Origin: Halocatena salina
GTDB lineage: Archaea > Halobacteriota > Halobacteria > Halobacteriales > Haloarculaceae
Direction of reading: 5' to 3'
Length of the DNA stretch: 64,000 bases
Assembly: GCF_023115355.1 (NCBI RefSeq)
Contig: NZ_CP096021.1
Coordinates: forward strand, 248,001-312,000
The position numbers and the translations under genes were made by a program. The notes beneath the pieces were generated by a model. It was given only the letters and a program-made list of their open reading frames with translations, did no database searches and was not told where the DNA came from. Positions 32,142-64,000 of the stretch are shown in pieces (position 1 is the first letter of the stretch; each line of letters opens with the position of its first letter).

Positions 32142-33251
32142 ATGAGTAATCGTACTAACAAGCTGCGTTCGGCCCTCACACGTCCCGGCGAGCATTCTAT
32201 AGTGCGATGGATGTTGGTCACTGGGCCTCGAACCAAAGTTATGTTCTCACTTATGTCGGTTGTATTCATCTCTCTTCTAGGATTAGCTATAGTTAGACCA
32301 GTAGGGATGCGCGATTTACTCAACGAAACAAGCGCTGTAAAGACATTGTTTAGTAACCTCCTCAGTGGTGCCATCCTCCTCGTTTCGATCGTTGTTTCGA
32401 TCAATTCAGTGGTTCTCTCGCAGGAGATAACAGATCTTGAAAGCCAACAGGACCGTATTGCTGCCTCACTCGAATACCATAACTATATTGAAGATTTCAT
32501 TGAAGCAGATATTACACCAGCTCGGCCAGCAGATTTCTTGAACGCGGTTTTATACGCGGTTTCTCGTCATGTCCAATCGCTAGCTCAGTTCGCTACCGAC
32601 AACACAAATGACGAGTATCAGAAAGAGGTGGAAGCATTCGCCGATCAAGTGGCTGAAGACATCGAACAAGCACGATACACGCTCACTACCGCCCGATTCG
32701 GATCGATCCAAGTTCTTCTAGCTGGGCTGAATTACAATTACTCCGGACAACTCCACACAGCACGAGGTCTCAAGCGTACATACGAGTCCGAACTCCGTGA
32801 CGAAGAACAGGAAGCAATAGCCACAATCATAGATATTCTCACGTATATTGGTACCGGCCGTGAGTACTTCAAATCGCTATATTATAAGCAGGAACTTGCA
32901 CGTCTTTCGAGCCGGTTATTAATCATCTCATTACCCGTCATCGTGTTCACGTCATACGTGCTTTTAGCACTCGATGCAAGTCTGTTTCCCGATATTTCAG
33001 TATTCGGAGTATCCCCACTCCTGCTCTTCATCACATCCGCCTATACGATAGCTCTCGCTCCATATATCATCTTGACAGCGTACATCATGCGAGCGGCGAC
33101 AATTACTCTCCGGACTCTCGCTGCAGGACCATTTATTCTACAAGAAGGTGGTGACATCGGCTCTCTTGGCTGGAACTCACCTAGTTCATCATGCGAGTGG
33201 GAGAAACCATCCCGGGAATGGGAGCTAACAGAGCGTACTGATGACGATTGA
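32142..33251 (+). CDS. Membrane protein of an unrecognised family (copy A)
   Basis: 369 residues from ATG 32142, picked because CAGGAGGTGA lies 6-14 bases upstream, an unusually clear Shine-Dalgarno for this window; a GTG at 32133 would sit inside it. Two N-terminal transmembrane helices (FSLMSVVFISLLGLAIV; LLSGAILLVSIVVSINS), the motif INSVVLSQEI, a helical middle region of about 150 residues, then two C-terminal helices (LLIISLPVIVFTSYVLLA; LLFITSAYTIALAPYIILTA) and AATITLRTLAAGPFI before an acidic tail. Copy B at 59342-60334 has the same plan, motif order and ending; a fragment is at 47826-48050. No known domain is evident. Confidence 0.85.
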   Translation: MSNRTNKLRSALTRPGEHSIVRWMLVTGPRTKVMFSLMSVVFISLLGLAIVRPVGMRDLLNETSAVKTLFSNLLSGAILLVSIVVSINSVVLSQEITDLESQQDRIAASLEYHNYIEDFIEADITPARPADFLNAVLYAVSRHVQSLAQFATDNTNDEYQKEVEAFADQVAEDIEQARYTLTTARFGSIQVLLAGLNYNYSGQLHTARGLKRTYESELRDEEQEAIATIIDILTYIGTGREYFKSLYYKQELARLSSRLLIISLPVIVFTSYVLLALDASLFPDISVFGVSPLLLFITSAYTIALAPYIILTAYIMRAATITLRTLAAGPFILQEGGDIGSLGWNSPSSSCEWEKPSREWELTERTDDD

Positions 33252-59341: not shown

Positions 59342-60334
59342 ATGAGAACGATGGCCGATTCACGAGAGAGATTCGCGCAATGGGTATTGGTGACCGGAGA
59401 TCGCCACGTAGTAGCTGGCTTGTTCGTATTGATTACATTCTCTTCACTTCTATTACTCACCCATATGGGAATAATTCGCCTTGAAGATCAGGAGGCTGTA
59501 CGCGGGATCGCCAGTGGGTTCGTGCCGGGGTTGATCGCTTTCCTCTCTATCGTCTTAGCTATAAATCAGCTTGTACTCTCCCAAGAGTTCGGCTCTGCTG
59601 GGGAGATACGATCTCGAATTCAAGAAGTAAAGGGATATCGACGTGACGTCGAGCAGATAGCCAGTGCAAAGCCAAGTCCAGTGCTTCCAACCGGATTTCT
59701 TTCTCTAGTCGTGCGAATCATCAAAGTCAAAGCTGTAGCGCTCGAAGAGAGCGTCGGACCAGAAACGGATCCGGAGATTCGTGAAACGATCGAGACGTTC
59801 GCACGCTCCGTCATCGACGAAACCACTCAAGCGAACGAATCGATCGAACAAGCCCGTCCAGGTCGAATTAATGCGCTGCTTCCAGTCTTGGAGTATAACG
59901 ATTCCCGCCAATTATTCGAAGCTCGCCAGCTCCAACATGATTCAGACAAGGCACTTCAAACTGAGACACAACAAGCGCTTTCCAGTTTGATCGAAGCACT
60001 CGAACTGTTTAGCGTTGCCCGCATACAATTCCGAACGACCTATACCCAGCGCGTGCTTGCCCGTCTGTCCCGCCAGCTCCTCTACGTTGGTCTCCCCGCG
60101 CTCGTCGCTGTGATAGTTCTTGGACTATTGGATACATCACTCCCCTCATATATTTCTGGAGAACTTAGCGTGATCATTATAGTCACACTCCTCTCGATCG
60201 CGGTTACACCGCTTGCTGTGCTAGCCGTATATTTACTTCGAGTAGCAATTATTTCGGAACGAACTATTGCAGCCGGTCCATTCGTCTCTCGACCAACCAC
60301 TGTCCAGACCGACCGAAATTCGGACTTTGAATAA
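59342..60334 (+). CDS. Membrane protein of an unrecognised family (copy B)
   Basis: 330 residues (or 327 from the ATG at 59351). Same plan as copy A at 32142-33251: two N-terminal helices (VVAGLFVLITFSSLLLLTHM; FVPGLIAFLSIVLAINQLVL), the motif AINQLVLSQE, a helical middle (VEQIASAKPSPVLPTGFLSL; RINALLPVLEYNDSRQLFEA), and two C-terminal helices (LLYVGLPALVAVIVLGLLDT; IIVTLLSIAVTPLAVLAVYL) ending AIISERTIAAGPFVSR, matching the TLRTLAAGPFI of copy A. No signal peptide; both termini probably cytoplasmic. Very AT-rich DNA follows the stop. No known domain; a channel-like or immunity role can only be guessed. Confidence 0.85.
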   Translation: MRTMADSRERFAQWVLVTGDRHVVAGLFVLITFSSLLLLTHMGIIRLEDQEAVRGIASGFVPGLIAFLSIVLAINQLVLSQEFGSAGEIRSRIQEVKGYRRDVEQIASAKPSPVLPTGFLSLVVRIIKVKAVALEESVGPETDPEIRETIETFARSVIDETTQANESIEQARPGRINALLPVLEYNDSRQLFEARQLQHDSDKALQTETQQALSSLIEALELFSVARIQFRTTYTQRVLARLSRQLLYVGLPALVAVIVLGLLDTSLPSYISGELSVIIIVTLLSIAVTPLAVLAVYLLRVAIISERTIAAGPFVSRPTTVQTDRNSDFE

Positions 60335-60640
60335 TAATCTATTAATTTATTATTCAAGTATATTATTAATCTATTATTTTTAGATTAAATATAGATATAT
60401 TTTCTGGTTTGACTCCTCTAATCATTCTTCGACTGGTGGTACAACAGTCAGTAACCGAGATTTATTTGTCCCGATTGGGTTTGAAACGGAGCATTATACC
60501 ACTGAGTACCCATCGTTCGTCAGAAAATCCATTGATCGAGGTGACTCGCGAAAGCGTTGCCACTCACTCGGGACGAACCGAGTTGTACGTCAGGCACCCA
60601 GTCCTCTGGAATCAGCACTGACGACACTAATTCGACGCAC
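60335..60640. other. AT-rich intergenic region
   Basis: Alternating A/T tracts at 60338-60400 may act as a terminator for the membrane-protein gene. No gene seen. Confidence 0.4.
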
Positions 60641-61130
60641 TCACCAGCAGTCAGTATCGGGGCATAGTCCATATTGCCGTTGACGAGCTTTCAGCAGAAA
60701 ATCCATCACACGCCAGATATCGTAGCGGAGGACGGCAAACAGGAAACAGCACCATCTCGATCGGCACGTGCTCTTTTGTCCGAAGAACGGGGCGGCGGAC
60801 GACCCAGTGAATCCGATTCGGGGGATTGGCATCCCACGATGAGCCCTCGCGAACCGGTTCGATAACGAGCACCAACGGAATATTCCACTCGACGATCGAA
60901 GGCGTGCAAATTTGAACGCTCTTCGGTCTCCGTCTGGAGTTCCGCTCACCATCGGTACTACCTCAACATCGACGTAGTACGGCATCGTCGTGATATCGAT
61001 CGCTACGGTGACTGGCAACGAAAGGTGGTTCGGATCGGATAACCGAGAGCAGTCGCGCCGTGTCGTCGTCGATGCCGTCGATCAGCGTCGCAGGCTCGAA
61101 TTGTTTAACGGGGCGAAGGTGGATCGACGA
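60641..61130 (-). pseudogene. Second ISH3-type transposase relic with an internal deletion
   Basis: Minus strand: VKQFEPATLIDGIDDDTARL, LSVIRSEPPF, then VTVAIDITTMPYYVDVEVVP, MVSGTPDGDRRAFKFARL, shifted LVIEPVREGSSWDANPPNRI, HVPIEMVLF, then directly FAVLRYDIWRVMDFLLKARQ. In ISH3-type transposases these last two segments are separated by more than a hundred residues including DREFDS, so the catalytic core has been deleted. Paralogous to the relic at 22640-23265 but with different damage. Confidence 0.75.
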
Positions 61131-61175
61131 CGCGTCCAGCAAGGAGGTAAGAGAGAAACGACTCCTCGGTGGCGA

Positions 61176-61667
61176 CTAGTCTGCGATACTACATTGGAGT
61201 GATATCTCTTCCCCATACTGGCCTAGTCGATGCGCATCGATCTCGGTAGCAACGCTCGCTGTCGTGCGGCAGTCATCCAACGTCGGGTATTGTACGAGGA
61301 GATTCCACGCGTATCCCCACGGGTCGGCATAGGCATCGTAGACACATGGTGGCTTGATATTGACCTGAGGACCGACAGGCGGGGCAATGTACTCAACACA
61401 CCCGGATGCTATCGCTTCATTCACTGCTTTTGCTACCGCTGGATCGATCGATTCGTCCTTCTTCTCCGATGAGAACTGGGCCGTTGCAGTCTCCTCTGGG
61501 GTAGCTGATTCTGGAGTGGCGTCGCTTGCAGCTGCTGTACCTGTCAGTGCTCCTGCGCCAAAGGTGGCGACACTGGCAGTTCCAATGAGTTTCAAGATAT
61601 TTCGCCGTGAAGTTCCGTCTATTTTTTCGTTCTGCTCGTTCGCTTGTGCCGGTTCGTTGGTCGTCAT
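61176..61667 (-). CDS. Small Tat-exported protein with four cysteines, unknown function
   Basis: 163 residues. The N-terminus carries a twin-arginine leader: GTSRRNILKLIGTASVATFG, then AGALTGTAAAS with a cleavage-like AAA. A Ser/Thr/Glu-rich spacer follows (ATPESATPEETATAQFSSE), and the remaining 90 residues contain four cysteines (GCVEYIAPPVG, PPCVYDAYADPW, LDDCRTT, LQCSIAD), enough for two disulfides outside the cell. The size and layout (Tat leader, spacer, Cys-containing C-terminal peptide) recall the precursors of small halocins such as halocin C8, which has many more cysteines; no sequence match is claimed. Upstream DNA is homologous to that of the Tat-exported hydrolase at 62225. Confidence 0.8.
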   Translation of the reverse strand: MTTNEPAQANEQNEKIDGTSRRNILKLIGTASVATFGAGALTGTAAASDATPESATPEETATAQFSSEKKDESIDPAVAKAVNEAIASGCVEYIAPPVGPQVNIKPPCVYDAYADPWGYAWNLLVQYPTLDDCRTTASVATEIDAHRLGQYGEEISLQCSIAD

Positions 61668-61676
61668 GAATTGACA

Positions 61677-61790
61677 AGTGAGATTATAATCAGATGAATA
61701 ATAACCTCATCGGCGCGTCTGCAGACGATGGCTTGAATACTCATACATATAGCTTCCCATAACTCCACTTAGGATCGAGGAATGCCTCCT
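61677..61790 (-). promoter_or_regulatory. Upstream region shared by the two Tat-protein genes, copy 1
   Basis: Lies just before ATG 61667. Matching blocks with copy 2 are TCAGATGAATAAT (vs TCAGATGGATAAT), TTGAATACTCATACATATA (vs TTGAACACTCATACATATA, 18 of 19) and GGATCGAGGAATGCCTCCT (vs GGAATCGAGGTGTCTCCT), in the same order and spacing. An AT-rich TATA-like stretch lies 27-35 bases from the ATG. Confidence 0.65.
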
Positions 61791-62224: not shown

Positions 62225-63139
62225 TTATCCGTTGCCGACAACACGTGCTACATCATTTATTACACCATATTCGTAATCCATATATTGACAGTGCTGCTTC
62301 ATGCCAGTCGGATAGCTAGTCATCTCTATGTTACCAGTGTGTGCTCTCAGTCCGATTGGTTGCGTCCTCTCCCAGGTTACGTAGTATTTTCTGAGAACGG
62401 GATCACTCTCACTGTACCAGTTGTGCGTCCAACCGCAGCCATGCTCCAGAGCGGTGTTGTACTCAAATGATACCTCTCCCACATCGACGGCACCGCCTAG
62501 AAAATGGATGGTGTCTATAGATTTTTGATACTTCTCGTGGAGTGTCTTAATACACTCTAACGCCACCCTAGCACCGAGAGAGTGACAGATAATGTTGATG
62601 TTTTTGCCGTCCTCGTCTGTCCAGCCGCGACCATTTATGAAGTCCCCAAGCCACCTCCCGGCCATGTAGGAGTTGTCCTTGGCACTCCCCCAATCAGTAA
62701 ACCCGTTACCAGCGGGCCAGACAAAGGAGAAACAAGCATGGTGTGGGTACCCTTCGTCACGTATTTTTCTCCACACTTCGTGTCCAGTATCAACCGCACC
62801 CTGTCTCGTACCCAGGAATCCATGAATGTAAATAGACAGTCCGTTGTTAGCATTCGGTAAGTTGTGTTCGGATTGTTCCCATGGTGAAAGATAGCCAAAC
62901 CAGCTGGGTGCACGGGGGGGGTTGTGATGACACTCTCCCCAATTCCCAGCAGCAGCTGTTCCACTAATCGTAGCTAGCCCGGTCATACCGACGGCTGCCG
63001 ATGCCGTCCCCTTCAGTAGTGTGCGCCGACTCAGTGACTGGCCAGTCGAGGGAGACGGTTCCGCAATGGAATCACTGTTTGCCGATTCGTCTGAAAGTAC
63101 TGTACTGTCGGTCACGTCAGCGGGGTCGTCCTGCATCAT
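62225..63139 (-). CDS. Tat-exported lipase-like alpha/beta hydrolase
   Basis: 304 residues (or 303 from the second Met). The leader reads SLSRRTLLKGTASAAVGMTG, LATISGTAAAG. The mature part has SIYIHGFLGTRQGAVDTGHE (oxyanion-loop HGF), the nucleophile elbow NIICHSLGARVALECIKTL (CHSLGA, a variant of GxSxG), an acidic region in FLGGAVDVGEVSF and a histidine in RAHTGNIEM. This is a secreted serine hydrolase, possibly a lipase or esterase of the DUF900-like group; the substrate is unknown. Its upstream region is homologous to that of the small Tat protein at 61176, so the two are probably co-regulated although each has its own promoter. Confidence 0.88.
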   Translation of the reverse strand: MMQDDPADVTDSTVLSDESANSDSIAEPSPSTGQSLSRRTLLKGTASAAVGMTGLATISGTAAAGNWGECHHNPPRAPSWFGYLSPWEQSEHNLPNANNGLSIYIHGFLGTRQGAVDTGHEVWRKIRDEGYPHHACFSFVWPAGNGFTDWGSAKDNSYMAGRWLGDFINGRGWTDEDGKNINIICHSLGARVALECIKTLHEKYQKSIDTIHFLGGAVDVGEVSFEYNTALEHGCGWTHNWYSESDPVLRKYYVTWERTQPIGLRAHTGNIEMTSYPTGMKQHCQYMDYEYGVINDVARVVGNG

Positions 63140-63146
63140 AGATCGA

Positions 63147-63260
63147 CAACTGAGATCAGGATCAGATGGATAATTATATCATCGATACATTATCAATGAA
63201 TATTTGAACACTCATACATATATTTTTTGGTTCATTTATGTTGGAATCGAGGTGTCTCCT
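63147..63260 (-). promoter_or_regulatory. Upstream region shared by the two Tat-protein genes, copy 2
   Basis: Counterpart of 61677-61790, directly upstream of ATG 63139. A TATA-like GATATAATTATCC (minus strand) lies about 35-45 bases from the start. See copy 1 for the matching blocks. Confidence 0.65.
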
Positions 63261-63563: not shown

Positions 63564-64000
63564 TCAGTCGTCACAATCATCTGTGTCGTCGACCGCCCGA
63601 TGCTCGCTGATCGACACGGATACATCGAATTCGGCCTCTTGAGCCAGGGTGACTGCCATTTCGTGGTGGGCGCGTATTGTCTCGGTCTCATTTTTGATCT
63701 CGGGGATCGCTGTGAGTCGTTCCACGCTCTCGATCGCATCGCGCACAGCACCCATCTCCCGGTATAACGCTATGGCAGTCTCGAAACGCTCACTGGCCCG
63801 TGCTACGTTTCCTTGCGCCCGGGCAGTCTCACCCAATTCGATCAGCGTCTTCGCCTCCCCGTAAGGGTGACCATCACGGCAAAGAGACAACGCCTCTGTG
63901 AGGTGGGTTGTAGCAGCAGCAAAATCACCGCGTTTGCGCATGATGACACCGAAAAAAAGACGTCCCATTGCCCTGTACTGAATGTTCTCTGTTTCGCTCC
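63564..64000 (-). CDS. C-terminal end of a TPR-repeat protein; 5' end outside the window
   Basis: The frame is open to the window edge (ENIQYRAMGRLFFGVIMRKR precedes). Three tetratricopeptide repeats can be seen: RGDFAAATTHLTEALSLCRD, EAKTLIELGETARAQGNVAR ASERFETAIALYRE and a third starting GAVRDAIESVERLT. The tail (HEMAVTLAQEAEFDVSVSIS, EHRAVDDTDDCDD) is acidic. The repeat pattern resembles the sensor half of large haloarchaeal or MalT-like TPR proteins. What precedes the repeats is outside the window, so the role cannot be read. Confidence 0.75.
   Translation of the reverse strand, partial: SETENIQYRAMGRLFFGVIMRKRGDFAAATTHLTEALSLCRDGHPYGEAKTLIELGETARAQGNVARASERFETAIALYREMGAVRDAIESVERLTAIPEIKNETETIRAHHEMAVTLAQEAEFDVSVSISEHRAVDDTDDCDD

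Follow-up and report, generated by a model that had tools for sequence, protein, structure and literature searches.

A small four-cysteine protein with a Tat-type leader, encoded beside a hydrolase and a STAND regulator in Halocatena salina

Introduction

STAND-type transcription regulators with TPR sensors, such as MalT and AfsR, combine a DNA-binding domain, a STAND NTPase and TPR in one large protein. To our knowledge, few archaeal STAND-type regulators have known targets, and we know of few secreted small archaeal proteins with a known job.

Halocins are the described proteins that come closest to the small protein considered here. All halocins described are hydrophobic (PMC11509114), and the active part of HalC8 and HalH4 is a C-terminal fragment freed by proteolysis (PMC12893001; PMC11509114). 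The halocin C8 precursor ProC8 is a Tat-exported haloarchaeal protein of 283 amino acids, in which a long N-terminal immunity part termed HalI is joined to a small C-terminal part (PMC11509114). Halocin H4 and HFX_0892 are likewise made as secreted haloarchaeal precursors, and cleavage by HlyR4 frees the C-terminal active fragment of HalH4 (PMC12893001).

The window analysed here, a stretch of 64,000 nucleotides, comprises positions 248001-312000 of contig C3 in the 4.0-Mb, 5-contig genome of Halocatena salina. Strains of H. marina are the closest named relatives of this genome. Judging from its size of 415 kb and from the plasmids of H. marina, contig C3 is probably a large plasmid. The locus of interest forms a compact and testable set: a regulator, two products with predicted export whose genes have homologous 5' regions, two strains that lost the set by a natural deletion, and a relative with intact copies.

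Layout of the Small Protein

The gene coding for the small four-cysteine protein extends over 61176..61667 on the minus strand, starts with ATG and encodes 163 amino acids with predicted Tat-type export; its assignment is based on the open reading frame, homologues and dN/dS values. The initial annotation had read the frame 61667..61176 as a Tat leader followed by a low-complexity spacer and a four-cysteine C-terminal part, and this layout was borne out. The leader (residues 1-47; 61527..61667, minus strand) consists of an n-region, the sequence SRRNILK, an h-region and a putative signal-peptidase site between AAA and SD. The twin-arginine motif TSRRNILKL covers residues 19-27 and is followed by a hydrophobic stretch ending in GTAAA. 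A match to the TAT-target family TIGR02811 is weak (E 4.7e-5) and lies under the family cut-off. From these sequence features we infer that the protein is exported. There is no lipobox cysteine after the cleavage site, and hence the protein is not a lipobox-type lipoprotein.

The spacer (residues 48-75; 61443..61526, minus strand) is rich in Ser, Thr and Glu, with 8 acidic and 2 basic residues among its 28, and is modelled with low AlphaFold confidence. Residues 76-163 (61176..61442, minus strand, stop codon included) form a predicted folded alpha/beta domain, as delimited by the model, the alignment and dN/dS. The four-cysteine C-terminal part amounts to 88-91 residues, and all four cysteines (Cys90, Cys108, Cys133 and Cys159) fall inside the domain. 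The mature protein has a computed pI of 4.1 and a GRAVY of -0.30, the domain a GRAVY of 0.0; the computed pI of mature part or domain is about 4.1-4.3.

It is this layout, and nothing else, that gave rise to the halocin idea of the initial annotation. An extracellular serine protease would cut the exported precursor, and the four-cysteine C-terminal domain would inhibit competing haloarchaea. The succession of Tat leader, spacer and cysteine domain does resemble that of HalC8 and HalH4, some recorded halocins have masses of 10-14 kDa, and nine subtilase (PF00082) matches on contigs C1 and C3 of the same genome represent possible extracellular processing proteases. However, the mature part is acidic and not hydrophobic, unlike the described halocins, and the family searches reported below revealed no similarity to described antimicrobials. 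Unlike ProC8 with its long immunity part, the protein has only the 28-residue acidic spacer between leader and domain, and its domain is acidic as well. HFX_0892 acts via N-terminal helices, whereas the N-terminal spacer of the small protein is predicted to be disordered. A halocin-like antagonist is thus improbable, and the claim goes unsupported. If the protein were nevertheless active on competitors, it would represent a new archaeocin family; if it is not, the locus still ties a STAND regulator to products with predicted secretion.

Relatives and Selection

Intact relatives of the small protein are found in three other Halocatena genomes. The homologue of H. marina DFN5 is 82% identical and encoded on a 388-kb contig, and the relatives in the Halocatena genomes G039 and G044 share about 35% identity and are encoded on the largest contigs of these assemblies. 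When the domain is aligned alone, the four cysteines, one tryptophan and the motif P-x-LDDCR are invariant. The dN/dS ratio of the gene is 0.21 for H. salina against DFN5 and also for G039 against G044; for the domain alone it drops to 0.12 and 0.05, respectively, and leader and spacer have higher values. The small gene is a real gene under purifying selection, and its domain is the most constrained part. Selection of this type, rather than diversifying selection, is a further point against a halocin.

When 391 genomes of the class were searched with a profile, no credible relative outside Halocatena emerged; three weak extra-genus matches (E 0.0016 to 0.006) were rejected, as they fall in frames that are unrelated or spurious. 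Phages and viral contigs yielded no relative either. Beyond the leader, searches of Pfam, NCBIfam, PHROGs and PADLOC matched the protein to no family, which also speaks against a halocin, and a comparison with PDB sequences by phmmer and profile search returned chance matches only. Among the genomes searched, the family is confined to Halocatena; this restriction and the accessory nature of the gene speak for the halocin reading. The initial annotation had called the product a secreted small protein without a recognised family; this part of its interpretation stands, with secretion judged by the leader, and the halocin-like character and the immunity link discussed below find no support.

Predicted Fold of the Domain

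AlphaFold2 models built from four sequences show high confidence over most of the domain and low confidence over the spacer. The domain modelled alone, again from four sequences, is a compact alpha/beta structure (mean pLDDT 86.8, pTM 0.78) with the predicted order helix, strand, strand, helices, helix, strand. Given the four conserved cysteines and the predicted export, the domain is probably held by two disulfides.

The mature protein was compared with the PDB and BFVD by Foldseek, and the domain alone with the PDB; neither these searches nor VIA-align gave a convincing structural match. The best scores (E 0.67, Z 3.2) belong to scattered, unrelated folds. Further down the hit lists are several OmpA-like periplasmic domains with a TM of about 0.3, which were not accepted as a match. 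Starting from a predicted model, these searches neither show a new fold nor name a known one. Homology searches and structure prediction, which the initial annotation had suggested as checks, accordingly returned no confident match to a known family or fold.

The Neighbouring Hydrolase and STAND Regulator

Upstream of the small gene, a 304-residue alpha/beta hydrolase with predicted Tat-type export is encoded on the same strand (62225..63139, minus strand). The hydrolase matches DUF900 (E 1.7e-8; 34.7 bits against a cut-off of 20.5) and contains a CHSLG nucleophile elbow. By these two features it is this neighbour, and not the small protein, that resembles the DUF900/Lipase_2-like alpha/beta hydrolases.

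Above the hydrolase gene, a regulator of 1227 amino acids is encoded on the minus strand, the C-terminal part of which falls in the window (63564..64000); the gene runs past the window to position 315247 of contig C3. Two HVO_A0261_N wHTH domains, FilR1_middle, nSTAND_NTPase5 and TPR were detected, all above the Pfam cut-offs. Like MalT and AfsR, the neighbouring regulator (again not the small protein) joins a DNA-binding domain to a STAND NTPase and TPR. Unlike these, it bears an archaeal wHTH (HVO_A0261_N, twice) and FilR1_middle at its N-terminus.

In H. salina, regulator, hydrolase and small gene lie inside 6.1 kb. DFN5 has the same three genes within about 9.3 kb, rearranged to the order hydrolase (plus strand), regulator (minus strand), small gene (minus strand). 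In G044 a related regulator and a hydrolase are adjacent, head to head, and the small gene is not with them. Contig C4 of H. salina carries a second hydrolase gene, preceded by a regulator remnant (83% identity) and again without a small gene. G043 has a close hydrolase and lacks the small gene, and the small genes of G039 and G044 have neither hydrolase nor regulator nearby; the pairing of small gene and hydrolase is therefore not obligatory. More distant relatives of the regulator within the family were seen to have no Tat protein beside them, and a widespread link between STAND regulators and Tat proteins was rejected on this ground.

The proximity of a TPR-containing regulator gene in two genomes raises the option of an extracellular signal: the STAND-TPR regulator would sense, directly or indirectly, the exported protein or one of its fragments, by analogy with peptide quorum sensing through TPR receptors. 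We consider this highly improbable. The regulator is predicted to reside in the cytoplasm, and no gene recognisable as a peptide importer lies beside it; a folded four-cysteine domain differs from short linear signal peptides, and the small gene is missing from the vicinity of close regulators in G043 and G044.

Homologous 5' Regions

The 5' region of the small gene (61662..61751, minus strand), which has a TATA-like AT stretch at its far end, is homologous to that of the hydrolase gene (63136..63225, minus strand). The homology extends over about 90 nt, with 72% identity in H. salina, and the 5' region of the H. salina hydrolase gene is 79% identical to that of the DFN5 small gene. This likeness of the 5' regions of small gene and hydrolase gene is seen in both genomes and extends to the region before the second hydrolase gene. 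An AT-rich, TATA-like stretch is common to these regions. That these regions are homologous copies shows their common descent and makes common regulation of the two genes likely. The small genes of G039 and G044 possess other 5' regions.

Within the homologous stretch, a 19-nt element precedes the small gene (GATGAGGTTATTATTCATC; 61693..61711, minus strand), forming the inverted repeat GATGA-N9-TCATC, and its counterpart before the hydrolase gene (GATGATATAATTATCCATC; 63165..63183, minus strand) is an imperfect inverted repeat. Seven Halocatena genomes contain five exact copies of the element in all, every copy before one of these genes, and it was thus rejected as the mark of a wider regulon as far as exact copies are concerned. 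Near matches with one or two mismatches are spread over all seven genomes. As it belongs to the homologous 5' region, the element does not prove regulation independently. As a side observation on the assemblies compared, several matches on contig C1 lie at identical coordinates in G040 and G041; the two assemblies may therefore share a chromosome, and would best not be counted as independent.

The small protein might also be a stand-alone surface or stress protein, i.e., a small exported structural or binding protein whose task has nothing to do with the hydrolase, and the likeness of its 5' region to that of the hydrolase would then stem only from a local plasmid duplication. The relatives in G039 and G044, which occur alone, on the largest contig and with other 5' regions, agree with this reading, and so do the hydrolases that exist without a small gene. 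Such a role fits less well with the fact that the three genes have stayed close together in two genomes although their order was changed, or with the homology of the 5' regions in both. We regard it as unlikely, yet as a serious contender.

A Natural Deletion in H. marina Plasmids

H. marina RDMS1 and QDMS1 carry plasmids on which truncated forms of the small gene and the hydrolase gene meet head to head. Comparison of RDMS1 with DFN5 reveals a single deletion of 8,656 bp flanked by 9-bp direct repeats (CCCCATGGG), which is the same in QDMS1; the junction lies in L028 5900-6700 (RDMS1 plasmid), compared with L069 6010-14674. Shuffling or phase variation at the truncated genes was rejected in view of this junction. 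The deletion also takes out the regulator. As regulator, hydrolase and small gene were lost in one event, the set is dispensable and accessory. The joint loss of three neighbours by a single deletion shows dispensability, not joint function.

Proposed Role of the Small Protein

The explanation we favour, tentatively and at not quite an even chance, is that the small protein is an exported accessory factor and that a plasmid-borne STAND regulator controls its expression jointly with that of a secreted hydrolase. The Tat pathway would export the preprotein in a folded state, and cleavage would follow AAA-47, leaving an acidic protein of 12.4 kDa that comprises the flexible 28-residue spacer and the alpha/beta domain with probably two disulfides. 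It would be expressed together with the neighbouring Tat-exported hydrolase, since the 5' regions of the two genes are homologous and the regulator is encoded beside them. The wHTH-STAND-TPR regulator probably switches on both genes upon some cytoplasmic signal. Outside the cell, the small protein would most likely be an accessory or binding partner in the task of the hydrolase, and not an enzyme; this is the weakest step.

The view of an accessory partner gains from the closeness of the three genes in H. salina and DFN5 despite their different order and from the pairing of regulator and hydrolase in G044 and, with a regulator remnant, on contig C4, and is weakened by the occurrence of the small gene alone in G039 and G044 and of the hydrolase without it in G043. 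In a more far-reaching version, a plasmid-borne STAND switch would turn on a disulfide-stapled, genus-restricted secreted domain of a new fold that acts with the secreted hydrolase, and the whole would amount to an undescribed archaeal module for competition or surface remodelling. This version we hold to be decidedly doubtful.

The Downstream Membrane Protein

On the other side of the small gene, the interval 60335-61175 holds no convincing gene; a 125-aa frame (60641-61018, minus strand) has no Pfam match and by eye resembles a decayed transposase. Beyond it lies a gene for a membrane protein (copy B, 59342-60334), which has no Pfam family above the cut-off. The initial annotation had correctly placed this gene some 0.8 kb from the small gene (841 bp). 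The protein has a diverged paralogue, with 34% identity, at 32205-33137. The initial annotation had also considered it, speculatively, as an immunity or target candidate. No gene for the membrane protein lies near the small genes of DFN5, G039 and G044, and the immunity link is therefore without comparative support and was rejected. No candidate immunity gene is conserved beside the small gene, which also counts against a halocin. As judged by gene order, the consistent partners of the small gene are the Tat hydrolase and the STAND regulator on its opposite flank, a connection that the initial annotation had not made. In G039 and G044, a gene for a DUF3267 membrane protease with a HELIH motif is convergent with the small gene (L073 8850-9749 and L074 9094-9993); among seven Halocatena genomes, this protease is present in these two only.
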